Assembly: GCA_012026835.1 (NCBI GenBank)
Contig: VEPN01000028.1
Location: forward strand, 1-38,282
Direction of reading: 5' to 3'
DNA from: Candidatus Methanoperedens sp.
GTDB taxonomy: Archaea; Halobacteriota; Methanosarcinia; Methanosarcinales; Methanoperedenaceae
Length of the DNA stretch: 38,282 nt
The position numbers and the translations under genes are program-made. Numbering within the stretch: the first letter of the stretch is position 1; every line of letters starts with the position of its first letter. This document shows positions 7,925 through 32,479 of this stretch, piece after piece. Below the pieces are notes generated by a model. It worked only from the letters and a program-made list of their open reading frames with translations, was not told the DNA's origin and did no database searches.

Positions 7925-9373
7925 ATGGATTATGATAAAATTAAATTCGTCTTCAATACTTCACCATCATTTAAATTGTTGACGAGCCCTCATGCAGCAT
8001 TTATTTTGAGTTTTTTATATATTCGATTCAAAAAAGCTGAAAAAATCAGTATTCCTAACGCAGAATTAGCCGAAGTTCTAAGTGATTACTTGGAAGATTT
8101 AAGGAAAAACAATCAGGAAACATATCCCAAAACTGCCCAATGTTATATAGATGATTGGTGTGATGATAATCATGGCTTTTTGAGAAGATATCATGATACG
8201 AACAGTGATGATCCTGTTCTTGAATTGACTCCAGAGACTGAAAAAGTATTTCAATGGCTTGAAGATATTGATAAAAAAGAATTTGTTGGTACTGAATCAA
8301 GGTTTCTTAGAATTTTCCAAGAACTTCAAGATATTATTAATAAAAGTACAGAGGATCCAAGAGAAAGGTTAAACCAATTGCAGAAGCAAAAAGAGAATAT
8401 TGAAGCAGAGATTGAGAAAATAAAATCAACTGGCCAGGTTGACTTACTTAACTCAACTCAAATAAAAGAAAAGTTTTTTTGGGTCAATAATGAAGCACGC
8501 AAATTACTATCTGATTTCCGGCAAGTTGAGCAAAATTTTAAAGATATAACCTATTCTATTAAAGAAAAGCAGTTAAAAGAAGCTTTAATAAAAGGGATGA
8601 TTGTTGGATTTGTTCTGGATGCTGATGATTCTCTCAAAGACTCTGATCAGGGGAAAAGTTTCTATGCATTTTGGAAATTTTTAATGTCTCCTTCTAAGCA
8701 AGAGGAATTAAAATATTTAATTGAAAGAGTTTATAATTTACCTGATATTCGTGTTTTAGAGACAGATGATAAGTTTTTGAAAAAAATTAAGAAAAATCTA
8801 TTAGATGCTAGTGAGAAGGTTATTAAATCAAATCACCGTCTATCAGAGCAGTTAAGAAAAATATTAGATGAAAAAAATTTCCTTGAAAATCAAAGAGTAA
8901 TAGAATTGATTAGAGAAATAGAACAAATAGCATTTGGCATTATTGAGAGAAATCCAATTGATAAAGATTTTATATTTTTAGAAAGCAATCCTGATGTCGA
9001 ACTGGTTATGGATAGACCACTTTGGATGCCAGTACAAAAACCATCCTTCAGAGACATATTAATTGAAGTAGGCCAAGATGAATTGAAAATGGATGATTTA
9101 TTTAATCAGTTTTTCATAGATGAAACTGAATTAAAACAAAGAATTCATAATTTCATACTATATCGTCCGCAAATAACTTTAGAGGAAGTAATAGAAAAAT
9201 TTCCGATAGAAAGAGGAATTTCTGAATTAATTGCCTATTTTAAGATTGCTTCTGAAGATGGTAAACATATAATTGATGATGAAAATCAAGTTCATATCAT
9301 TGTCAAAAATGAATTCGGTAGTAATAAGTTATGTAGGAGAATCAAAACCCCGCAAATCATTTTTACTAGATAA
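7925..9373 (+). CDS. jetA: Wadjet type I component JetA (MukF/kleisin-like, DUF3375-like)
   Basis: A 482-residue first gene of a four-gene Wadjet operon. In characterised Wadjet systems JetA is the kleisin that bridges the SMC heads and recruits JetB; the complex extrudes DNA loops and cleaves small circular DNA such as plasmids. The N-terminus has the DUF3375 layout: SPSFKLLTSPHAAFILSFLY, then YPKTAQCYIDDWCDD, then GFLRRYHD, ELTPETEKVFQWLED and FVGTESRFLRIFQEL. A coiled-coil stretch follows at about residues 150-180, then a long helical middle and a C-terminal winged-helix-like part. The family assignment is by pattern recognition. The DNA is strongly AT-rich relative to the RPA genes, a sign of horizontal transfer. 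jetB begins 12 bases after its stop. Confidence 0.9.
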   Translation: MDYDKIKFVFNTSPSFKLLTSPHAAFILSFLYIRFKKAEKISIPNAELAEVLSDYLEDLRKNNQETYPKTAQCYIDDWCDDNHGFLRRYHDTNSDDPVLELTPETEKVFQWLEDIDKKEFVGTESRFLRIFQELQDIINKSTEDPRERLNQLQKQKENIEAEIEKIKSTGQVDLLNSTQIKEKFFWVNNEARKLLSDFRQVEQNFKDITYSIKEKQLKEALIKGMIVGFVLDADDSLKDSDQGKSFYAFWKFLMSPSKQEELKYLIERVYNLPDIRVLETDDKFLKKIKKNLLDASEKVIKSNHRLSEQLRKILDEKNFLENQRVIELIREIEQIAFGIIERNPIDKDFIFLESNPDVELVMDRPLWMPVQKPSFRDILIEVGQDELKMDDLFNQFFIDETELKQRIHNFILYRPQITLEEVIEKFPIERGISELIAYFKIASEDGKHIIDDENQVHIIVKNEFGSNKLCRRIKTPQIIFTR

Positions 9374-9385
9374 AATAGATCAATT

Positions 9386-9982
9386 ATGGAAACTGATAAA
9401 ATTTTAAAATATGCACCAGCAATTATCAGACTATTGCAGGGAGCAATCCACTATGATGATAAAGATATTTGGGAAAATCTGCTGTCTAACCAAACCTCTA
9501 TAGAAGAATATTTCGAAAAAATTGGCATAAGGGTTATTATAAACGAAAATGATGGCTATGCGTTTATAGAACAGAAAAGATTTGAAGAAGAGAATAATAT
9601 CAATTTGCCAAGGCTTACTCGTAAAATTCCATTGAGTTATGATGTTACATTATTATGTGTTTTACTTCGTGAAAAGTTGTTACAGTACGATACGGGGGGT
9701 AGTTACTCGTTACGGCCAATTGTTACTAAAGAAGATATATACGAACTGTTACTTCAATTCTTCAAAGAAAGAACGGACGAGAAAAAGCAACGAAGGAAAT
9801 TTGATACAGTTATAAACAAGGTAATAGAATTAGGCTTTTTAAGGCCCCTAGAAAATCCTGGGAAAGAAGAATACGAGATTAGGGCCATTATAAAAGCTAT
9901 AATTAAGGCTGAAAAGTTAAACGAAATTAAACAAAGGCTACAAAAACACGCAGAGGATATCCATGCAGAGAAATCTATTTGA
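9386..9982 (+). CDS. jetB: Wadjet type I component JetB (MukE-like, DUF4194-like)
   Basis: A 198-residue small subunit matching the DUF4194/JetB pattern: AIIRLLQGAIHYDDKDIWENLL near the N-terminus, YFEKIGIRVIINENDGYAFI as the wing-like strand pair, LPRLTRKIPLSYDVTLLCVLLREKL in the middle, and KVIELGFLRPLE near the end. It is a tandem winged-helix, KITE-type protein predicted to bind the JetA kleisin and to modulate the SMC ring, as MukE does in MukBEF. The last 20 bases overlap the start of jetC, so translation is probably coupled. Length is normal. No Shine-Dalgarno is obvious before the ATG. Confidence 0.9.
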   Translation: METDKILKYAPAIIRLLQGAIHYDDKDIWENLLSNQTSIEEYFEKIGIRVIINENDGYAFIEQKRFEEENNINLPRLTRKIPLSYDVTLLCVLLREKLLQYDTGGSYSLRPIVTKEDIYELLLQFFKERTDEKKQRRKFDTVINKVIELGFLRPLENPGKEEYEIRAIIKAIIKAEKLNEIKQRLQKHAEDIHAEKSI

Positions 9983-12900
9983 AATAAATAATGATCGAGT
10001 GGGTTTCCGTTTACAAAGGCTGGAGATGTATAATTGGGGTACTTTTAACAAAAAAATATGGAGTATTGAACCGCATGGTTATACTTCTTTACTTACTGGT
10101 TTAAATGGTTCAGGTAAATCCACAGTAGTAGATGCATTATTAACCCTATTAGTTCCAAACATTAAAAGAAATTATAATCTTGCGTCAATAGGAACTGAAA
10201 AAAGACGAGAGAGAGACGAAAAAACCTATGTTTTGGGCGCTTATGGAAGATTAAAGGACGAAGTAGATCAAAACACAAGTAAAGTTCAATATCTAAGAAC
10301 AAAAGATGATTATTCTGTTTTGCTTGCGTATTTCTTTAATAAGGACTATCAGCAGAAGGCAACTTTAGCTCAAGTGTTTTGGTTTGAAAATGATTCAATT
10401 AGAAAATTTTTTTTGATATCAGAAAAAGAATTGAATATAAAAGAACACTTTAACAACTTATCTAGCATAAGAGATTTAAAGAAAAAACTTAATGCAAATG
10501 AGAATACCAAACTTTATGATCAATTTATAGATTATAGTGCTGCCTTTCGCAAAATTTTTGGTTCACTATCTGAAAAAGCGCTAGATTTATTTAATCAAAC
10601 TGTTGCAATAAAAGTAATTGGTGATTTAAATGATTTTCTGCGTAATTATATGCTGGAAAAATTAGATGTTAATGAAAAAATAAGTGAGTTGAAGAAAAAT
10701 TATGTTGATTTAACTAAATCGTATGATGCCATCCAAAAAGCTGAAAAACAATTGCTACAATTAAAGCCACTGATTGTTGAAGCAAATCTATTTGAGAAAC
10801 TTTCATCTGAGATAAAAGAATCTGAAAATTGCCTCCGAGTTCTCTCTGCGTTTTTCTCTAAAATTAAAATTGATTTATTTAATAAAGCCACCATTGATAA
10901 ACAAAATCAGTTATCCCAGATAAAAAATCAGATTATAGCTCTGAATACGGAATTGGAAAATTTAAGGCAAACAGAAAATGAACTGAACATTGCAATCAAT
11001 AAAGATGAAATTGGGCAACATATCGAAAACATTGAGAAGGAAATTAAATATCGCCAAGAAGAGTTAGATAGGAAGAAGAAAAACGCTGAAAAATATATAA
11101 GCCTAGCAAATCAGTTAAAATACAATCCAGAACCGGATGAAAATGGATTCAATGCTTCGCTCTCGAATGGGTGTTTATTAAAAAAATCAATCGAAGAACA
11201 ATTACAAAACCTAATTCTTCAAAGAGATGGATTAAAATTTGAATTAAAACAACTCGAAGATAAATATAAAGAAAATAATATTGAGCTTCAATCTTTAAAA
11301 CAAAGAAAAAGTCAGATACCAAGTAAAAATCTTGAGATAAGAAAAAGGATTTCAGAATTTTTAGAAATTCCCGAGCAGGAATTACCTTTCATCGGTGAGT
11401 TGTTGAAAGTGAAGGGCACAGAAAAAGAATGGGAAGGGGCAATTGAGCGTCTATTACATAATTTTGGTTTACGCATTCTTGTCCCAGAAATTCATTATAA
11501 CAGATTCAATAATTATGTAAATAAAAACGATTTGAGAGGTAAGATTGTATATAACAAAGTAATACAAAAAAATGATTATAAATCTTATAGAGATATAGAT
11601 TCAGATGAGATTTATAATAAAATAGAACTAAAACCTGATACAGAATTTCATGGTTGGCTAAAAACCCAATTGATGGAACATTATAACCATATTTGTTGCG
11701 CTGACTTAGAACGCTTTCATCAAGAATTAAACGCTTTGACTAAAAGTGGGCTTATAAAAGGAAAGACACTGCATATAAAAGATGATACCACAAATATATT
11801 TGAGAGAAGAAATTATATTTTAGGGTGGAATAATCAAGAAAAAATCAATGCTATTCAAAAAGATTTGAGTGACTTACAGATTAAAATAAATCAAATAAAT
11901 GAAAATATTAGAGCTATTGAGCGAGAACAAGCTCAACTTAACCGCAAAAAAGAAATTTTGCAGGATTTTACAAATTACAAAGATTTCAAAGAGATAGGGT
12001 GGAAGATAATAGAAACAGACATCGGAAATCTAATGCAACAAAAGAAAAAATTAATGGAGAGTTCCGATAAACTAAAACAATTACAAAAAGAATTGGATAG
12101 TATTAAAACAAAACAAAAAGATGCTGACAGATTGAGAAACGAATCAACAAAGAAAGAAGCTAATCTTGAGAGAGACATTAGAGATTACCAAAAATATTTA
12201 GTTAGCTGCCAAGAATTGTTAAAATTTCATAAAGATGAGGAAATATTATTATACTCCTCAAAAATTGAACTATATCTAAAAGGTAAAACAATAATAATTG
12301 AAACTATCGCGAATTTAGAAGACGATGTTAGAAATATATTTCAGAATCAAATAAAACAAAAGGGGGAAAAAGCAAAAAACGCTGAAAAAATTATTGAAAA
12401 AATGATGTCAGATTATATAAGAGATAATCCAGAAGAGACCACAGACGTAATTCCAAATATAGATTTCATAAATGAATTTAAGAAGTTTCTAAATAAAATC
12501 GAACGAGAGGATTTACCGCGGCATAAAAAACGCTTCAAGGAATTGCTCAATGAAAATGTTATTCGAGATATTGCTAGTTTTCAATCAATCCTTGAGTCAC
12601 AGGAAGAGGAGATTAAGACAAAAATTGAGGCTTTAAATCAATCTTTGGTAACAATCGATTATACAGCATCAACTTTCATTATTCTGGTTAGTAAGCCTAA
12701 TCGCGACGCCGAAATCAAAACCTTTAGATTAAAGCTAAAAGATTGTTTACCCGATATAGGCAGAGTGGATAGCCCTGAATCAAATGAAGCAAGTTTCCAT
12801 AAAATAAGAGAAATTATAGAACAATTTGATAAAGAACAGCGATGGACTGAAAAAGTTACCGACGTGCGGAACTGGTTAGACTTCGCAGCTAGTGAGAGAT

Positions 12901-13310
12901 ATAAAGCAAATAATTCAGAAAAGAATCATTATTCGGATTCATCAGGTTTATCAGGCGGTCAAAAAGCTAAACTTGCATATACAATTCTTGCTTCAGCAAT
13001 AGCCTATCAATTTGGATTGGATTCAAATCAAATTAAATCAAAATCATTCCGCTTTGTTGCGATAGATGAGGCATTTAGTAAATCCGATGAAGCAAATTCT
13101 CGCCATGCTATGGACTTATTCAAAAAATTGAATTTACAGTTACTAGTAGTTACGCCATCGGATAAAATTCATATTGTAGAGCCTTATATTTCTGCCGTGC
13201 ACTATGTAGAAAATAACCAAGAATTAAACAATTCTAAGGTTCACACTCTAACAATGCAAGAATATGCTGAAAAGAAAAAAGAATTTAAAGATTTGCATCC
13301 TCAATCATGA
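9963..13310 (+). CDS. jetC: Wadjet type I component JetC (MukB-like SMC ATPase)
   Basis: An 1115-residue SMC-type ATPase, the motor of the Wadjet complex. The N-terminal head has Walker A GLNGSGKST (residues 46-54). The C-terminal head has the ABC signature SGLSGGQKAK (about 994-1003) and Walker B VAIDEAF with D1035 and catalytic E1036. Between them are long coiled-coil arms, rich in lysine and glutamate, at about 270-460 and 640-900. They flank a hinge-like globular region around 470-600 (FIGELLKVKGTEKEWEGAIERLL). All ATP-binding and hydrolysis residues appear intact, so the motor should be active. The start overlaps jetB by 20 bases and the stop overlaps jetD by 4 (ATGA). Strong AT bias and lysine AAA use match the other jet genes. 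Confidence 0.95.
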   Translation: MQRNLFEINNDRVGFRLQRLEMYNWGTFNKKIWSIEPHGYTSLLTGLNGSGKSTVVDALLTLLVPNIKRNYNLASIGTEKRRERDEKTYVLGAYGRLKDEVDQNTSKVQYLRTKDDYSVLLAYFFNKDYQQKATLAQVFWFENDSIRKFFLISEKELNIKEHFNNLSSIRDLKKKLNANENTKLYDQFIDYSAAFRKIFGSLSEKALDLFNQTVAIKVIGDLNDFLRNYMLEKLDVNEKISELKKNYVDLTKSYDAIQKAEKQLLQLKPLIVEANLFEKLSSEIKESENCLRVLSAFFSKIKIDLFNKATIDKQNQLSQIKNQIIALNTELENLRQTENELNIAINKDEIGQHIENIEKEIKYRQEELDRKKKNAEKYISLANQLKYNPEPDENGFNASLSNGCLLKKSIEEQLQNLILQRDGLKFELKQLEDKYKENNIELQSLKQRKSQIPSKNLEIRKRISEFLEIPEQELPFIGELLKVKGTEKEWEGAIERLLHNFGLRILVPEIHYNRFNNYVNKNDLRGKIVYNKVIQKNDYKSYRDIDSDEIYNKIELKPDTEFHGWLKTQLMEHYNHICCADLERFHQELNALTKSGLIKGKTLHIKDDTTNIFERRNYILGWNNQEKINAIQKDLSDLQIKINQINENIRAIEREQAQLNRKKEILQDFTNYKDFKEIGWKIIETDIGNLMQQKKKLMESSDKLKQLQKELDSIKTKQKDADRLRNESTKKEANLERDIRDYQKYLVSCQELLKFHKDEEILLYSSKIELYLKGKTIIIETIANLEDDVRNIFQNQIKQKGEKAKNAEKIIEKMMSDYIRDNPEETTDVIPNIDFINEFKKFLNKIEREDLPRHKKRFKELLNENVIRDIASFQSILESQEEEIKTKIEALNQSLVTIDYTASTFIILVSKPNRDAEIKTFRLKLKDCLPDIGRVDSPESNEASFHKIREIIEQFDKEQRWTEKVTDVRNWLDFAASERYKANNSEKNHYSDSSGLSGGQKAKLAYTILASAIAYQFGLDSNQIKSKSFRFVAIDEAFSKSDEANSRHAMDLFKKLNLQLLVVTPSDKIHIVEPYISAVHYVENNQELNNSKVHTLTMQEYAEKKKEFKDLHPQS

Positions 13311-14473
13311 TCAATCCTGCCGGAATAAGGAAAAAAGCTGAAAGATTGTATAACGAATATTTAACTGCGCTATTAAAATCAGAGTTATTTTTCCCTAAAG
13401 ATATTCCTTTTGGTAAGCCCAATCACACTAGTGATTATGTTATACTAAAAAAGGAAGTTGAAGAATTAATCAATGGATCAAAAGATAAACTGGGTTATGG
13501 TTATAAGGTCGAATTGGAGCGATTCAACACACGCAGATATAGGTTACAATCTTTACCTTGCAAAATCTATTTTGAGAATGAGATCGATTATTTGAAATTT
13601 ATTAAGAAAGAGAAAGAAGTTTCTGAATTTAAAATCGCTATCTCTCAGATTCGAGAAACAATACCTAATCTCTATGACTGGATTGATAAAAATACTAGTA
13701 AAGTTATTGATAATATTGGTAAATGGAACGAAATGTTGAAAGTTTGTGAATATTTTCAAAAAAATACTAAACCAAATCTTTACATTCGTGAACTACCTAT
13801 AGAGATTCATACAAAATTCATCGAAGAAAACAAAGGAACTTTAAAGCAACTTTTGGACTTTTTACTGCCCACTGAAGCTATAAGAAGGGATGAATCTGAA
13901 TTCGAAAAAAGGTTTTATCTGAGATACGATGAACCGCTTATCAGAGTAAGAGCATTAGACCAAAGCTTATTAGCAAAATATAATTTATCTTTTTCAGATT
14001 TTTCCATTCCAATAATAATATTTAATGATCTCAAGTTAGAGAATGGACGATTTATAATTACGGAGAATAAAATGAATTTTCTGACTTTACCCTATTTAAA
14101 AAATACATTTGGGCTATTTGGTGGAGGTTTTAGAATTGAGATATTGAAACAAATTGATTGGTTAAAGAAATCAAATATTATCTACTGGGGCGATATTGAT
14201 GCTCAAGGATTTCAAATTTTGTCTCAACTAAGGTCATATTTCCCCCAAACAAAATCAATAATGATGGATTTTAAAACACTTAATATCTTCAAGCCATTCA
14301 TTGTATTAGGAACACCTACTAATAAATCTTTTAATTTACAAAATTTAACAATCGAAGAAAAAGCATTATACGATTATCTGCTTGAGAAAAATTATCGTTT
14401 GGAGCAAGAAAAAATTAACCAAAGCTATGTAATAGAGAACTTAAGAGTTTTAATAGGAGATAATCAATGTTAA
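13307..14473 (+). CDS. jetD: Wadjet type I component JetD (Toprim nuclease, DUF3322/DUF2220-like)
   Basis: A 388-residue nuclease subunit. JetD resembles the topoisomerase VI/Spo11 A subunit and cuts DNA held by the JetABC loop extruder. The N-terminal region (about 1-190) has the DUF3322 arrangement, including KSELFFPKDIPFGKP. The C-terminal region is Toprim-like: E253 in FIITENKMNFLTLP and the D296-x-D298 pair in YWGDIDAQGFQIL are the expected metal-binding residues, and all are present, so catalysis looks intact. It starts inside the jetC stop (ATGA overlap). Its own stop lies 7 bases inside the next gene, a nucleotidyltransferase, so that toxin-antitoxin-like pair is translationally linked to Wadjet. 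Confidence 0.92.
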   Translation: MINPAGIRKKAERLYNEYLTALLKSELFFPKDIPFGKPNHTSDYVILKKEVEELINGSKDKLGYGYKVELERFNTRRYRLQSLPCKIYFENEIDYLKFIKKEKEVSEFKIAISQIRETIPNLYDWIDKNTSKVIDNIGKWNEMLKVCEYFQKNTKPNLYIRELPIEIHTKFIEENKGTLKQLLDFLLPTEAIRRDESEFEKRFYLRYDEPLIRVRALDQSLLAKYNLSFSDFSIPIIIFNDLKLENGRFIITENKMNFLTLPYLKNTFGLFGGGFRIEILKQIDWLKKSNIIYWGDIDAQGFQILSQLRSYFPQTKSIMMDFKTLNIFKPFIVLGTPTNKSFNLQNLTIEEKALYDYLLEKNYRLEQEKINQSYVIENLRVLIGDNQC

Positions 14474-15641: not shown

Positions 15642-16679
15642 ATGTTCAACCCCAACTTCAACTACACCCACAGGATAGTAAAAAATCTCGTGGACATAGC
15701 CTCGGCAAGAGAGATCATCCTCAATGCCTATCTTATGCGAAAATGGGAAATATCACTCAGGAGAGACGCTATTATCAGGGCAGCGCATGCATCCACGGCA
15801 ATCGAAGGAAATCCGCTCACATTAGAAGAGGTCAGCCAGCTTGCACAGGGCAGGAAAATCACGGCAACAAGAAAAGCACAGCAGGAGGTGCTTAACTATC
15901 TAAGGGTTTTAGAGGACATAGAGAAGTACCATGAGAAGGGCAGGATAAATGACAAAATTATATTAAAATTACACAAAGATATAACAAAAAATACTTTAGA
16001 AAATCCTGAGTATGAAGGAAGATACAGAGAACTTCAGGTATATGTTGGCAACAGGATAACAGGCGAAGTTATTTTCATGCCCCCCTCCCCCGAAAAAGTG
16101 CCAGCGTTGATGAGTGAGTTCGAAGAATGGCTCAATTCAAACGATTCATCTCAACTCAATCCTGTCCTTATTGCTGGAATATCACATTACGAATTTGTAA
16201 GAATCCATCCTTTTGTAGATGGCAATGGCAGGACGGGGAGGGCATTGGCGACTCTCCTCCTTTCTCTCAGGGAATTTGACATTAAGAAATTTTTTGCATT
16301 AGATGATTATTACGACAGCGACAGAATGGCATATTACCGCGCTTTAAATTCTGTTGATCAGAAAACGCTCGATCTCACAGGTTGGATTGAATATTTTACA
16401 GATGGCGTTCTCCTCTCCATCACAAAAGTAAAAGAGAAGGTATTGCAGCTTTCTCTGGAAAAATATAAAAAAAAGGCAAAAGGGCAGGTTGCTCTCACAG
16501 AAAAGCAGACTAAAATTATTGAACATATAATTTCAAATGGACGAATAACAAGCGGCGAAATCCAAAAGATGTTTAAAATATCACGTCCTGCGGCATATAA
16601 GGAGATTAAAAAGCTAATTGAACTGGACTTGATCGAGCCGAAAGGCACTGGTAGAGCTATATATTATGTTATTAAATAG
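15642..16679 (+). CDS. Fic-domain protein (class II, probable AMP-transferase)
   Basis: A 345-residue Fic protein. The catalytic motif HPFVDGNGRTGR (H189-R200) is fully conserved, so transfer of AMP from ATP to a protein hydroxyl is expected. An N-terminal inhibitory helix motif of the (S/T)xxxE(G/N) type is seen at STAIEG (S51-G56), placing it in class II with the inhibitory glutamate E55 before the Fic core. A flap-like segment (TGEVIFMPPSPEKVPALMSEFEEWL) lies upstream of the motif. The C-terminal 70 residues (TEKQTKIIEHIISNGRITSGEIQKMFKISRPAAYKEI) form a winged helix-turn-helix, so it may bind DNA or regulate its own operon. It is the last gene of the island and ends at the first base of a triple 12-bp repeat. 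Confidence 0.93.
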   Translation: MFNPNFNYTHRIVKNLVDIASAREIILNAYLMRKWEISLRRDAIIRAAHASTAIEGNPLTLEEVSQLAQGRKITATRKAQQEVLNYLRVLEDIEKYHEKGRINDKIILKLHKDITKNTLENPEYEGRYRELQVYVGNRITGEVIFMPPSPEKVPALMSEFEEWLNSNDSSQLNPVLIAGISHYEFVRIHPFVDGNGRTGRALATLLLSLREFDIKKFFALDDYYDSDRMAYYRALNSVDQKTLDLTGWIEYFTDGVLLSITKVKEKVLQLSLEKYKKKAKGQVALTEKQTKIIEHIISNGRITSGEIQKMFKISRPAAYKEIKKLIELDLIEPKGTGRAIYYVIK

Positions 16680-22663: not shown

Positions 22664-23221
22664 TCAATAAGAATATCGCTCCTCTTTCCACGGATCAGCG
22701 CTGTTGCTGTACCCCCTTTGCTCCCAGAAACCCGGTTCCTGTTCTTCTGTGAACACAACTTTTCTTACCCATTTTGCGCTCTTGTATGCATATTTTTTCG
22801 GGACTACAAGCCGAAGCGGCCCGCCATGTACCGGTTCAAGCGGCTTCCCTTCATAATTATAAGCAAAGAGCACATCAGGTTCCATAAGCTCATTAAGAGG
22901 CAAACTTGTCGTGTATTCGCCATCACACACTATGGTTGCAAACCCGGCATTATTTTTCGGCTTTACAAGCTTTGCAATATCTCTGAAAAGAACACCTTCC
23001 CATCTCATATCCAGCCTGCTCCAGCCTGTTACGCAATGGAAATCGCTGATATCCTCTGTCCTTCCCAGGGCAAGGAATTCATCGTATGTGAGCCTGACAG
23101 GATTTTCAACAAGACCTTCGGCACGGAAATCCCATGTTCTCCTGTCAAATTCCGGTACACGGCCAAAATGCAGAACCGGAAAATTTGCAGTTACGTGCTG
23201 GTTGGGCGGAATTCTCTGCAT
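22664..23221 (-). CDS. Molybdopterin-dependent oxidoreductase (sulfite oxidase fold, COG2041)
   Basis: A 185-residue protein made up of just the molybdopterin-binding domain of the sulfite oxidase/MsrP family. The molybdenum-ligand cysteine is C63 in DFHCVTGWSRLDMRWEG; the following R and W are also conserved. VHGGPLRLVVPKKYAYKSAKWVRKV is the second conserved cofactor block. There is no signal peptide or Tat motif and no dimerisation domain, so it is a short, probably cytoplasmic member; many archaeal genomes have such proteins with unknown substrate. The start lies 3 bases after the kup stop, indicating an operon. A MoeA-type cofactor gene elsewhere in the window would support molybdenum insertion. 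Confidence 0.88.
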   Translation of the reverse strand: MQRIPPNQHVTANFPVLHFGRVPEFDRRTWDFRAEGLVENPVRLTYDEFLALGRTEDISDFHCVTGWSRLDMRWEGVLFRDIAKLVKPKNNAGFATIVCDGEYTTSLPLNELMEPDVLFAYNYEGKPLEPVHGGPLRLVVPKKYAYKSAKWVRKVVFTEEQEPGFWEQRGYSNSADPWKEERYSY

Positions 23222-28399: not shown

Positions 28400-29449
28400 T
28401 TATCTTCTCAGGAAAGACACCACTATTATAACAACAGCAATCAAGAGAATCACACCAATAATAAGAACAAGGTTTACTGGCGGTGCCGGTTCAGGCATTT
28501 CTGCTGCAGTCACAACCGAATTATCTACAGGTTGTGTTGCCGCTGGTGTTGCTACTGTTTTCCCCGTCCCGGTTATGGCAAAAGACGAGAATGTATTCGT
28601 CCTTGTCTCATGGTAGGTGACATTATCATCTGTGGTTGTTTCTGTTGTATCCAGGGAATCCCATTTACTGCCGTCCCATCTCAGCATTACGGTATCCCCC
28701 TTCTCACCTGTGTGCCAGGTATTATTTACCCTGAACCTTATTATTCCCTCCGTGATATTTGCAGGTACTGCAAAACCCCGGCCGCCGATTATGATATTCA
28801 CGTTCTTATAAACAATCCCCGGTGCCGGTGATGAGACAAGCTTTGATGTGTCTTTTAGCTGCTGGATTTTCACACTCGTCGGTCCTGCATTTACATTCGG
28901 AGTAATCATAAGTTCATATACAGACTGTCCTGGCAGTGTGAAATTAACAGTAACAGGTATGCCATATCTGAGATTTACTTCCCTGGTCTCCTGGAATTCT
29001 ATATTATCAAATGGTTCAACTGAGATTACGTTCCCGCCGCCGGTACTGTTAGTACCGCTCCCTGATCCTCCGCCTCCTCCGGCTGCCGTTGCGCCTCCGG
29101 AGGTCAGGTCAATCTGCTTTATATCCCCGCTGGTCCACGTTGTAGTCTGCCGGGCAGCTACATTGTTTACAAGGAAAGTCACAGTAGAGCCACTTTCACC
29201 TGCATGGCCTGTAACTGCAAGTTTCTCGTACCCATCTGAATTACCATAACTGCCGCTTGAGCCGGTTGTTATCCTGCCGCGTTCTTCTGCCCCGATTTTT
29301 GCAACTATCGTCGTTCCCGGAGGAGCTGGCTGCCCGTCTATTGTTACGCTGCCATAATAGCCTGCCGGGATTGGAGGATTCAATGCTACGGACGCTCCTG
29401 CTGAAACCAGCACAAAGAAAACAATGAGAAAAGTTGTTTTTTTATTCAT
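28400..29449 (-). CDS. Secreted PGF-pre-PGF-domain surface protein with C-terminal membrane anchor
   Basis: A 349-residue cell-surface protein. Residues 1-22 are a signal peptide (KTTFLIVFFVLVSAGASVAL). The N-terminal domain (PIPAGYYGSVTIDGQPAPPGT to about residue 120) is a beta-sandwich-like module, followed by a glycine/serine linker (AAGGGGGSGSGTNSTGGG). Residues about 145-300 match the PGF-pre-PGF domain of euryarchaeal surface proteins (VYKNVNIIIGGRGF; ITEGIIRFRVNNTW; TNTFSSFAITG). The tail has a proline-rich stretch, then one span (VNLVLIIGVILLIAVVIIVVSFL) and RR. No PGF triplet is seen, so it is membrane-anchored without archaeosortase. A GGTGAT Shine-Dalgarno precedes the ATG. It follows the large Ig-repeat gene across a 42-base gap with a hairpin. 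Confidence 0.82.
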   Translation of the reverse strand: MNKKTTFLIVFFVLVSAGASVALNPPIPAGYYGSVTIDGQPAPPGTTIVAKIGAEERGRITTGSSGSYGNSDGYEKLAVTGHAGESGSTVTFLVNNVAARQTTTWTSGDIKQIDLTSGGATAAGGGGGSGSGTNSTGGGNVISVEPFDNIEFQETREVNLRYGIPVTVNFTLPGQSVYELMITPNVNAGPTSVKIQQLKDTSKLVSSPAPGIVYKNVNIIIGGRGFAVPANITEGIIRFRVNNTWHTGEKGDTVMLRWDGSKWDSLDTTETTTDDNVTYHETRTNTFSSFAITGTGKTVATPAATQPVDNSVVTAAEMPEPAPPVNLVLIIGVILLIAVVIIVVSFLRR

Positions 29450-29491: not shown

Positions 29492-32230
29492 TTACCATGG
29501 TTTTCCTGTTCCTGCCCACGGCACATTATTCTGCGGACGATTGAATAGCGGGTCTATGAATAACCAATAACCATGGCCCTGTTTCAGGGCGGTACTATTC
29601 GTTAACCCTGCTCCCGTGAAAGTCTGTGGATTCGTCACATTTTCATAGGATATCAGTATTGAATAATATTTGCCTACCTGATTATCCTCCAGGCCCGCGA
29701 AGAGATCGCCTGCAGTTATGTTAGCCTCTGGATTGTCATCTCTGTTTGCGTTCACACCTATCAGGTTCCAGCCTTCATAGAGATTCCTTTGTGGCGGGGA
29801 TGAAACTACGGTTGTATCTGCAATGAACCCGAGGCTCTGGTTGGTTGCTGTGACATTGATCCAGTATCCGAACAGTGGTTGTATAATTGTCGGTGTTGAG
29901 AAACTGGCGTTTACCGGGTCGTAACTGAAAACCGCATTGTACTGCACATTCTGTAATACCTCTGAGACATTGTTGGATCTGGCATTGTTTGGAATCGATA
30001 CCAGGTTCCATCCTTTCTCCAGCGGGAATACCCTGTCTGCGAACATAATCGTTGTATTGCCTGTAATATTTCCGCTCGTTGCTGTTACATCCACTAACTG
30101 GGCGATGCTTGATGTGATTGTCATCGTAGCCACCCCGTTCGTGAAGCTTACATTCATCGGAGATGATGTTACTGCGCTTACATTATCTGCAGCAATGGTT
30201 ATGTTGGCAGTCCCGCTGTGAAGGGTCTGCGGATTGGTGCCGCTGAGGGCAGTGATAGTTATTGTTATCATGCTCCCTTTGAGAGCGGCGGTTGCATTGG
30301 GTTTGAGTTCCAGGGCAGTTACTGCTGTTGATAATACCGTCACATTAGCTGTTCCCGTGATATTACCGCTTGTTGCACTTATTGTCGTATTGCCAGGTGC
30401 CAGGGCAGTGAACATGCCTGTAGTCTCATTGGTTGCATTGATTGTACCCACCGTTGTGTCGCTGCTGCTCCATGTTATAGTTGCGTTAACCGGATTGCCT
30501 GATTGATCCATTGGAGTAGCTATGAAGTTCACGGTAGCCCCCGAAAGTACGGATGTCGTTGCCGGTGTAACTACTATCGTATTTACTCCGGGTACGGGTG
30601 TTGTTGATAATACGGTCACATTAGCTGTCCCTGTTAGATTACCGCTTGTTGCACTTATTGTCGTGTTACCAGGTGCCAGAGCAGTGAAAATGCCTGTCGT
30701 CTCATTGGTTGCATTGATTGTACCCACAGTTGTGTTGCTGCTACTCCATGTTATGGTTGCATTAATCGGATTACCCGATTGATCTGAGGCTGTAAAGTTC
30801 ACAATATCTCCCGAAAGTACGGATGTCGCTGCTGGTGTAACTATTATCGTGCCTGTTCCGGGTACTGGTGTTGTTGATAATACAGTCACATTTGCGGTTC
30901 CCGTTAGATTACCGCTTGTTGCACTTACCGTTGTATTGCCAGGAGCTATAGCCGTGAATACGCCTGTGGCTGTATCTATCGACCCAACAGTAGTATTGCT
31001 GCTGCTCCATGTTATGGTTGCATTAATCGGATTACCCGATTGATCTGAGGCTGTGAAATTCACAACATCCCCTGAAAATACAGACGTTGTTGCTGGTGTA
31101 ACTACTATCGTGCCTGTTCCGGGTGTTCCCGGCTGCACGATCCAATTCCACATTTGGCTGACTTCGCCGTTTGTATTGTTTGCGACAGCAGTAACATTCC
31201 ATGTTCCCTGGGCTGCGCTCGTGTTTGTATAGCTTGATGCTGCAACATTCGTATCAGACAGCACCTGTGTGCCGTTGATTAACCATGTCACGTTTACTGT
31301 CTGGTTAACAGTGATGCTGAATGTCCTCGTTGCCCCGACTGTGTCTGTAACCGTTGGAGTGGCTGGAACAGGAGGAGTAGGACTTATGCTGATGATTGAA
31401 GGCAGACCTCCTGCCTGCGTGGCAGGGCTTACATTCCATGTCCAGGCCTGCGTTGCTGTGCCATTTGCATTGCTTGCGACAGCAGTAACATTCCATGTTC
31501 CCTGGACTGCACTGGTGTTCGTATAGTTTGATTCTGTAACACCCATATCTGACTGCACCTGTGAGCCATTAATTGACCATGTTACATTAACTGTCTGGTT
31601 GGCCGTGATGCCAAAAGTCCTTGTGGCCCCTGGCGTATCAGACACCATTGAGGTGGCCGGGCTGGCTGTTATATTAGGTGCATTGGCTCCTGCTGGAGAT
31701 GCCTGCACAGTTATGTTGATGTCTTTGAAGTCGGTTTCCTTTGGAACAGAAGCATTGGTGTCAGAAGCATTGGTGTCAGAAGCATTGGTGTCAGAAGCAT
31801 TGGTGCCAGCAGTACTAGCTCCTCTGGAGGCATATACTCTGACTGTATAATTTCCCGGTACTGTCGGTGCAGTTAACGTGGAGTTTGCTGTGCCGCTTGG
31901 AGTAGCTTCCATAGAAGCAGGTATTCGTGGAGTTGCTCTAAACAGAAGATTATCTCTTGTGAGGCCAATACTGCTGAAATCCGTTGGCCAGTTAACTTCT
32001 GTCCTGTCCTCAGGATTTCCCCCGCTCCAGGTCATATTTACCTTGAAAGCCTGACCCGGATTGACAGTAAGTGTTGAAGTAACATCCGTGGTAATGTTGA
32101 TCGTAGTTGGCGGGTATGCATGACACCCGGCGGTGTTACACGCCAATGTCTGTCCCGGAGTTGCACCAGCCGTCGATATCCCGGCTATCATCAGTATTAC
32201 TAACATCGCTAATATATAGCTTATTTTCAT
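29492..32230 (-). CDS. Large secreted Ig-repeat surface protein with a CX4CH heme-like motif
   Basis: A 912-residue extracellular protein. The signal peptide is at residues 1-23. Immediately after it, C31, C36 and H37 form CX4CH (ACNTAGCHAYPP), a variant heme c motif, within a domain (TEVNWPTDFSSIGLTRDN) similar to those in cytochrome-like archaeal proteins. Then come a repeated SDTNA linker (four units), two similar Ig-like modules (about 200-370; TVNVTWSINGSQV and its copy), three near-identical Big_2-type modules (about 370-630; ITWSSSNTTVG, GNTTVSATSGNLTG), another Ig-like part, and a C-terminal region with two WNL motifs (KGWNLVSIP; EGWNLIGV). There are many NxT/NxS sites. No C-terminal membrane anchor is visible, so it is secreted or S-layer associated. 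Redox activity is inference. Confidence 0.8.
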   Translation of the reverse strand: MKISYILAMLVILMIAGISTAGATPGQTLACNTAGCHAYPPTTINITTDVTSTLTVNPGQAFKVNMTWSGGNPEDRTEVNWPTDFSSIGLTRDNLLFRATPRIPASMEATPSGTANSTLTAPTVPGNYTVRVYASRGASTAGTNASDTNASDTNASDTNASVPKETDFKDINITVQASPAGANAPNITASPATSMVSDTPGATRTFGITANQTVNVTWSINGSQVQSDMGVTESNYTNTSAVQGTWNVTAVASNANGTATQAWTWNVSPATQAGGLPSIISISPTPPVPATPTVTDTVGATRTFSITVNQTVNVTWLINGTQVLSDTNVAASSYTNTSAAQGTWNVTAVANNTNGEVSQMWNWIVQPGTPGTGTIVVTPATTSVFSGDVVNFTASDQSGNPINATITWSSSNTTVGSIDTATGVFTAIAPGNTTVSATSGNLTGTANVTVLSTTPVPGTGTIIVTPAATSVLSGDIVNFTASDQSGNPINATITWSSSNTTVGTINATNETTGIFTALAPGNTTISATSGNLTGTANVTVLSTTPVPGVNTIVVTPATTSVLSGATVNFIATPMDQSGNPVNATITWSSSDTTVGTINATNETTGMFTALAPGNTTISATSGNITGTANVTVLSTAVTALELKPNATAALKGSMITITITALSGTNPQTLHSGTANITIAADNVSAVTSSPMNVSFTNGVATMTITSSIAQLVDVTATSGNITGNTTIMFADRVFPLEKGWNLVSIPNNARSNNVSEVLQNVQYNAVFSYDPVNASFSTPTIIQPLFGYWINVTATNQSLGFIADTTVVSSPPQRNLYEGWNLIGVNANRDDNPEANITAGDLFAGLEDNQVGKYYSILISYENVTNPQTFTGAGLTNSTALKQGHGYWLFIDPLFNRPQNNVPWAGTGKPW
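30327..31125 (-). repeat. Three near-identical ~270-bp DNA repeats encoding Big_2-type Ig modules
   Basis: Sequence starting with GTTGATAATAC.GTCACATTAGC recurs at about 30327, 30603 and 30872 (plus-strand reading). Copies have a period of roughly 270-276 bases and share long stretches nearly base for base. They encode the tandem Ig modules of the surface protein. Nucleotide-level identity suggests recent duplication or gene conversion. Confidence 0.85.
31748..31807 (-). repeat. Four tandem 15-bp repeats encoding SDTNA linker units
   Basis: AGAAGCATTGGTGTC (plus-strand reading) occurs four times head-to-tail; the fourth differs by one base. In the coding strand it gives D-T-N-A-S units, a hydrophilic, probably flexible and glycosylatable linker. 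In-frame 15-bp units could vary in number between strains. Confidence 0.9.
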
Positions 32231-32479
32231 TTTATTTTCCCCCTTTATTCATTTCATCTTTCCCCTTTGATATTATCGGAATTGTTCACTTCGTATCAGT
32301 AAATCTTATCCCGTTGTTTTTTTCCGATGAACAAAATCAACACGGCGTCTGCCATGAAAATTTAATCACCATATTCGAATACGAATTGAAACGCTCCCTG
32401 TTAATTTCGTATGAATCTCTCTATTTATAAACATTGCGATGTTTAAGTAATCTTCATAAAATTTTTTCAACCAAATCTA

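Follow-up and report, generated by a model that had tools for sequence, protein, structure and literature searches.

The locus and the encoded protein

The window, that is, the whole stretch of 38,282 nucleotides that was analysed, corresponds to contig C40 in the 3.32-Mb genome of Candidatus Methanoperedens sp., and it carries on its minus strand (29492..32230) an open reading frame that translates, from an ATG at 32230, into a protein of 912 amino acids. A GGGGG run at 32239..32243, 9-13 nt 5' of the ATG on the same strand, resembles a ribosome-binding site and may act as one. The chain, whose features all lie on the minus strand, begins with a Sec signal peptide predicted to span residues 1-23 and to end in AGA (32162..32230), which was delimited by eye and whose end conforms to an [AV]-x-A pattern present in all ten of the head domains compared below. 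This is followed by a mature N-terminal tail TPGQTLA (residues 24-30; 32141..32161), equal in length in the ten heads, and by a CX4CH motif, C31-N-T-A-G-C36-H37 (32120..32140), which is the proposed site of a c-type heme. The head itself is a predicted beta-sandwich (residues 38-177; 31700..32119), as judged from AF2 models and Ig-like matches, and is interrupted at residues 143-161 (31748..31804) by a NASDT microrepeat linker where the nine relatives have a gap; each in-frame NASDT unit brings one more N-glycosylation sequon. Beyond the head lie Ig-like repeats of a type common to multiheme cytochromes in blastp comparisons (approximately residues 179-364; 31139..31696), three Big_2 repeats (approximately residues 373-635; 30326..31114, with approximate outer limits), and, at 29495..30064, a C-terminal region in which GWNLV (740) and GWNLI (820) occur and which has no second match in the same genome at E 0.01. 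The initial annotation had described an Ig-repeat protein bearing C31-x4-C36-H37 in this frame, and both elements are borne out: Pfam assigns Big_2 to three stretches with an E value of 4.1e-22, and the translation contains the motif as claimed, reading from 32140 to 32120.

The protein contains 57 N-x-S/T sequons, and its Ig stalk is probably N-glycosylated. Inspection by eye revealed no C-terminal membrane helix or anchor, and there was no Pfam match to an S-layer domain; weak matches to pseudoazurin (0.0019) and Ig_3 fell under the curated cut-offs and were left out. A lipoprotein reading of the N-terminus was rejected because, on inspection by eye, neither T-L-A-C in the window protein nor R-A-C in its paralogue forms a lipobox.

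The next gene, 42 bp downstream (28400..29449, minus strand), encodes a PGF-pre-PGF protein (TIGR04213, 1.1e-34) with a C-terminal hydrophobic stretch seen by eye, and its adjacency alone makes this product a possible partner of the window protein. The flanking genes are not of redox type, consisting downstream of the PGF-pre-PGF gene, Hel308 and a UppS-type gene, and upstream of a topoisomerase-like frame identified by eye; a molybdopterin-oxidoreductase-type gene lies approximately 6 kb from the window gene, at 22664-23221. Elsewhere in the window, consecutive matches to DUF3375, DUF4194/MksE, SbcC-like and JetD (7925-14473) make up a complete-looking Wadjet set, the first three genes of which are presumably JetA-C, and after this set comes a Fic protein (15642-16679).

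Relatives of the head domain

The window protein has exactly two cysteines, at residues 31 and 36, and three histidines, at residues 37, 671 and 886, and C31 is the eighth residue past the predicted signal-peptide site. In 200,000 trials that scattered 2 Cys and 3 His randomly across the 889 positions following residue 23, a CX2-6CH pattern appeared 6 times and CX4CH 3 times. With only two cysteines in the chain, the protein falls below the multiheme class, which is defined by at least three heme motifs.

A protein search of 34 family genomes, including that of the window, gave matches in nine and a profile search gave matches in eight, some of the 34 genomes being incomplete; among the 21 family genomes of good quality, four carry the head according to the profile. 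After the removal of duplicates (L007 and L042, which repeat L004, L007 being letter-for-letter the same over the head; L002 and L026, which repeat L014; L001, L005 and L038, which repeat the window; and further profile loci), ten distinct heads remain, distributed over eight of the 34 genomes, all of one genus, the window's genome and G025 contributing two heads each. Across a phylum sample of 392 genomes, the profile matched in 12, and the head is carried by G000 and G016 alone: at eleven further phylum loci (L028-L037, L040), no CX2-6CH was found near the match in frames of at least 50 aa, one stray CX2-6CH frame at L036 having no overlap with the match. A scan of viral contigs returned no relative of the head.

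Three candidates were set aside in compiling the family. The matched frame in G024 (L013, E 0.005), the genome that the protein search returned beyond the eight of the profile, lacks any Cys, and L003 (E 0.03) is part of the giant frame on C86. L103 (G033) was left outside, its profile comparison with the head covering 27 columns at a probability of 40; this protein (L103:2466-3587, G033:C6), from another genus of the family, has two beta domains in tandem, headed by CX4CH and CX3CH, as well as a C-terminal hydrophobic segment.

Both cysteines and the histidine are invariant in the ten aligned heads, and it is the spacing between the cysteines that varies: CX2CH occurs in five heads (L014, L004, L009, L010, L012), CX4CH in three (window, L006, L011) and CX6CH in two (L008, L015). 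The paralogue in the window's own genome, L014, has CNQCH at the motif. The loss of a cysteine or of the histidine from homologues was to have counted against the heme reading of the initial annotation, and all nine relatives retain the three residues, with the canonical CXXCH standing at the equivalent place in half of the ten heads. On a tree of the heads built from the part of the domain after the motif, in which two of the seven inner branches are starred, CX4CH requires two changes, as the two starred branches also force, and the spacings together require four; spacing is no more clustered on this tree than in shuffles.

The domains found with the head, or close to it, include further heme and copper modules. 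At L109, in genome G016, a single 1299-aa chain consists of a head with a shortened sandwich, then Ig repeats and eight further CXXCH motifs, and after its gene come two frames, both with eight CXXCH. At L004 the head is fused to plastocyanin-type domains (PF00127, 1.3e-18, two stretches); inspection by eye of this frame (L004:6001-8172) adds an EF-hand-like C-terminal segment to the head and the plastocyanin-type copper domains, and its sequence points to a possible heme-plus-copper surface redox protein. The frame next to the head gene in G027 has four CXXCH and then meets the contig end, and the paralogue L014 and a molybdopterin-oxidoreductase/cytochrome b561 pair are arranged tail to tail. 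Around the heads L014, L006, L009, L015, L010 and L011, no CXXCH-bearing neighbour was found in the stretches viewed, some of which are short. The stalk also has counterparts in multiheme proteins: by blastp, the Ig-like repeats of the window protein are 53% identical over 180 residues to L109, and one repeat has 63% identity across 92 residues with a cytochrome of the window's own genome, whose 1001-aa frame contains 17 motifs (16 CXXCH and one CX5CH) and an SdrD_B-like tail, a feature also of L008.

AF2 models made from ten-row alignments predict an Ig-like sandwich for both the window head (pLDDT 75.3, pTM 0.72) and the L006 head (pLDDT 78.5, pTM 0.71). The motif segment has low confidence in both models, which could be expected because it was modelled without heme. 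The PDB was compared using Foldseek for the window head model and VIA-align for both models. In VIA-align, the best row for L006 was the ILRUN Fw domain (Z 10.6, 2.6 A over 100 residues), and the best row for the window head had Z 9.1 and 3.1 A over 107 residues, scores such as these being common for the Ig-like fold. The rows listed consist of Ig-like sandwiches, among them complement C3-C5, FW, MSP and PKD domains, and include neither a cytochrome (cytochrome f or any other) nor a reelin-N domain, an absence that excludes nothing. Cytochrome f was likewise absent from the Pfam matches listed and from the results of a profile search of PDB sequences.

Heme sites and maturation genes of the genome

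The methane-type archaeal setting supposed in the initial annotation agrees with the content of the genome, which has one McrA match and multiheme cytochromes on several contigs, and the maturation genes for which that annotation advised a search were recovered: among the profiles covered, CcmE gave 5 matches, CcmH 4 and PF01578 (CcmC/CcmF type) 11. For the ANME archaea, the available text of Chadwick et al. (2022; PMC9012536) reports CcmH in freshwater ANME-2d.

The spacings used at the putative heme sites of this genome were counted in ten frames, each containing four or more CXXCH, drawn from seven regions picked via PF13435 matches; these frames are a non-exhaustive set in which two may be near-copies. 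They contain 297 CH sites, of which 277 are CX2CH, 6 CX3CH, 10 CX4CH, 2 CX5CH and 1 CX6CH, the one other site having no Cys within 8 residues. CX4CH is the commonest spacing other than CX2CH in these ten frames and, since it accounts for 10 of the 297 sites, may be regarded as ordinary in this genome. The CX6CH site, CYNTTGGCH, resembles the CX6CH motifs of L008 and L015. That CX4CH is a c-type variant had been suggested from the outset, and its occurrence within multiheme cytochromes of the same genome is in keeping with this; as read from these sequences, the CX4CH of the head would be CXXCH with a tolerated change of spacing and not a separate kind of site. The text of PMC9012536 also mentions modified heme motifs with extra inter-cysteine residues in ANME cytochromes.

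Two giant frames were noted in the course of this survey. A single uninterrupted frame of 5615 aa (G000:C49:10744-27588; L118, L119) contains 113 CXXCH, 7 CX4CH and 1 CX6CH, which amounts to 121 candidate heme sites and exceeds the 20 to 80 given for large ANME cytochromes in the available text of PMC9012536. A frame of 5442 aa (G000:C86:46320-62645; L094) contains 52 CXXCH and has a CcmF-type match (C86:45475-46071) approximately 250 bp away, an arrangement like that of CcmF2 beside ANME MHC-B in the same source (PMC9012536).

Interpretation of the motif and its significance

The most probable reading, to which a probability of about 0.75 may be attached on the basis of the sequence comparisons, is that the window protein carries a covalent c-type heme via C31 and C36. 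The points counted in its favour are the invariance of Cys, Cys and His despite a spacing of 2, 4 or 6, the CNQCH of the paralogue, the Ccm genes of the genome, the presence of CX4CH in its multiheme frames, the octaheme and cupredoxin fusions, and the Ig repeat with a 63% identical counterpart in a multiheme cytochrome. Counted against it are the lack of a cytochrome in the fold rows, the low confidence of the modelled motif segment, the lack of a conserved sixth ligand, the non-redox neighbours, the restriction of the head to 8 of the 34 genomes, and the lack of a C-terminal anchor by eye. The protein would be exported by Sec and cleaved after residue 23, as predicted by eye, after which the Ccm apparatus of the genome would very likely attach the heme, with thioethers to C31 and C36 and with H37 as the proximal iron ligand. 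The motif segment is predicted to pack against the Ig-like beta-sandwich, and the Ig and Big_2 repeats may serve to keep the head off the membrane. The weakest step is the last, in which the heme might relay single electrons or provide a docking tip beside extracellular multiheme cytochromes. A lone heme cannot make up a conduit by itself; the likeliest such role is that of a docking or relay tip serving multiheme partners, although this electron-relay use is less sure than the covalent heme. The whole looks, from its sequence, like a secreted monoheme c-type head on a long flexible Ig stalk, forming a small redox tip; since the head is found in only 8 of the 34 family genomes, an accessory role is indicated and not a part in the core machinery. 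The overall interpretation given in the initial annotation, a redox centre placed at the cell surface, is in this respect partly supported, and we infer the attachment of the heme from sequence.

If C31 and C36 were instead joined in a structural disulfide by which the N-terminal tail is fastened to the sandwich, with an incidental histidine, then a secreted protein with exactly two cysteines, a Cys spacing free to vary at little consequence, and the lack of a conserved sixth ligand would all be accommodated. This is unlikely, since it leaves unaccounted for the histidine that stands right after the second cysteine in every one of the ten heads, the fusion of the head to octaheme and cupredoxin modules in relatives, and a spacing range equal to that of the multiheme sites of the genome. 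The last of these also bears on a non-heme site for Zn, Cu or Fe: CxxC plus His can bind metals, but the invariant columns offer no further Cys, His, Asp or Glu, and both the form of the motif and its spacing range match the heme sites of the genome, so that a site of this kind is highly improbable. The remaining alternative accepts the c-type heme of the preferred reading, with which it is not exclusive, and contests only the electron relay, assigning the heme to sensing, to the binding of small ligands (NO, CO, peroxide) or to adhesion to cytochromes. The lack of a conserved sixth ligand would suit a five-coordinate heme and the stalk domains Big_2 and SdrD_B are adhesin-like, whereas the octaheme and cupredoxin fusions in relatives fit electron transfer better; such a use is rather unlikely.

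If a heme is present, the nature of its sixth ligand must be considered. No conserved His or Met that could fill this position was found in the head domain across the ten heads, five of which have no His or Met at all after the motif. In all ten, exactly seven residues separate the [AV]xA site from the first Cys, even though the motif varies by up to 4 residues; the mature chain is predicted to begin with Tyr or Phe in five heads (with Thr24 in the window protein), and five have Pro as residue 2. Cytochrome f is an all-beta c-type cytochrome with its heme near the N-terminus, where about twenty residues precede the first heme Cys as against seven in the heads. Its sixth ligand is the alpha-amine of Tyr1, according to the available text of PMC6616624, and the heads are like it in that their predicted mature N-terminus is at a constant distance from the heme Cys. 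The constant distance of seven residues, together with the lack of a conserved His or Met, raises the idea that the heads ligate heme as cytochrome f does, with the His proximal and the alpha-amine of the cleaved mature N-terminus distal. This idea is held at a low probability, because the signal-peptide sites were read by eye and the ten sequences are related, and it is quite unlikely to be correct; if true, cleavage of the signal peptide would be a step in heme ligation, and the heads would represent a second origin of N-terminal amine ligation, outside photosynthesis.

The nearest described system that was found, compared by description and not by sequence, is cluster 38 of Kletzin et al. 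(2015; PMC4429474), which comprises the predicted monoheme cytochromes c Igni_0579/0759 and Igni_1052 of Ignicoccus. According to the available text of that paper, these proteins are like the window head in being archaeal, in having a single heme motif near the N-terminus and a beta-sandwich, in their case modelled on the reelin-N domain of F-spondin, and in being known by prediction only. They differ in that their motif is canonical (Cys28/Cys31/His32) where that of the window is CX4CH, in that the description of the cluster mentions no Ig stalk, and in that Cys77 or a conserved His111 is weighed as the distal ligand, whereas the heads have no conserved His beyond the motif (PMC4429474). Weak profile similarity to choice-of-anchor V (NF041895) occurs in four of the ten heads, with a best E of 7.2e-5, and there is no match in the window head. 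The 42-bit cut-off of this profile was not reached wherever bits were given (15.9-18.9 in three relatives, 25.2 at best in the 34 genomes); its matches in the phylum search, in 4 of 392 genomes, include none above the cut-off, and no published paper using the name was found. The large and S-layer multiheme cytochromes of ANME archaea, as described in the available text of Chadwick et al. (2022; PMC9012536), resemble the window protein in belonging to related archaea, in being c-type and in lying outside the cell membrane, but the large ones have 20 to 80 heme sites and the window protein has one. The combination of the Ig-stalk architecture with the 2/4/6 spacing series was not found in print, in a search that mostly left out subscription papers.

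The family is small and so far comes from one genus, and within it a single position shows CX2CH, CX4CH and CX6CH. This spacing series is a compact natural set with which to ask which spacings the archaeal Ccm machinery accepts. Counts of multiheme cytochromes, which look for at least three CXXCH, miss such single-heme proteins by design, and they miss the window protein most of all because it is without CXXCH. The results suggest that the cell surface of these methane-metabolising archaea bears single-heme proteins with long stalks.
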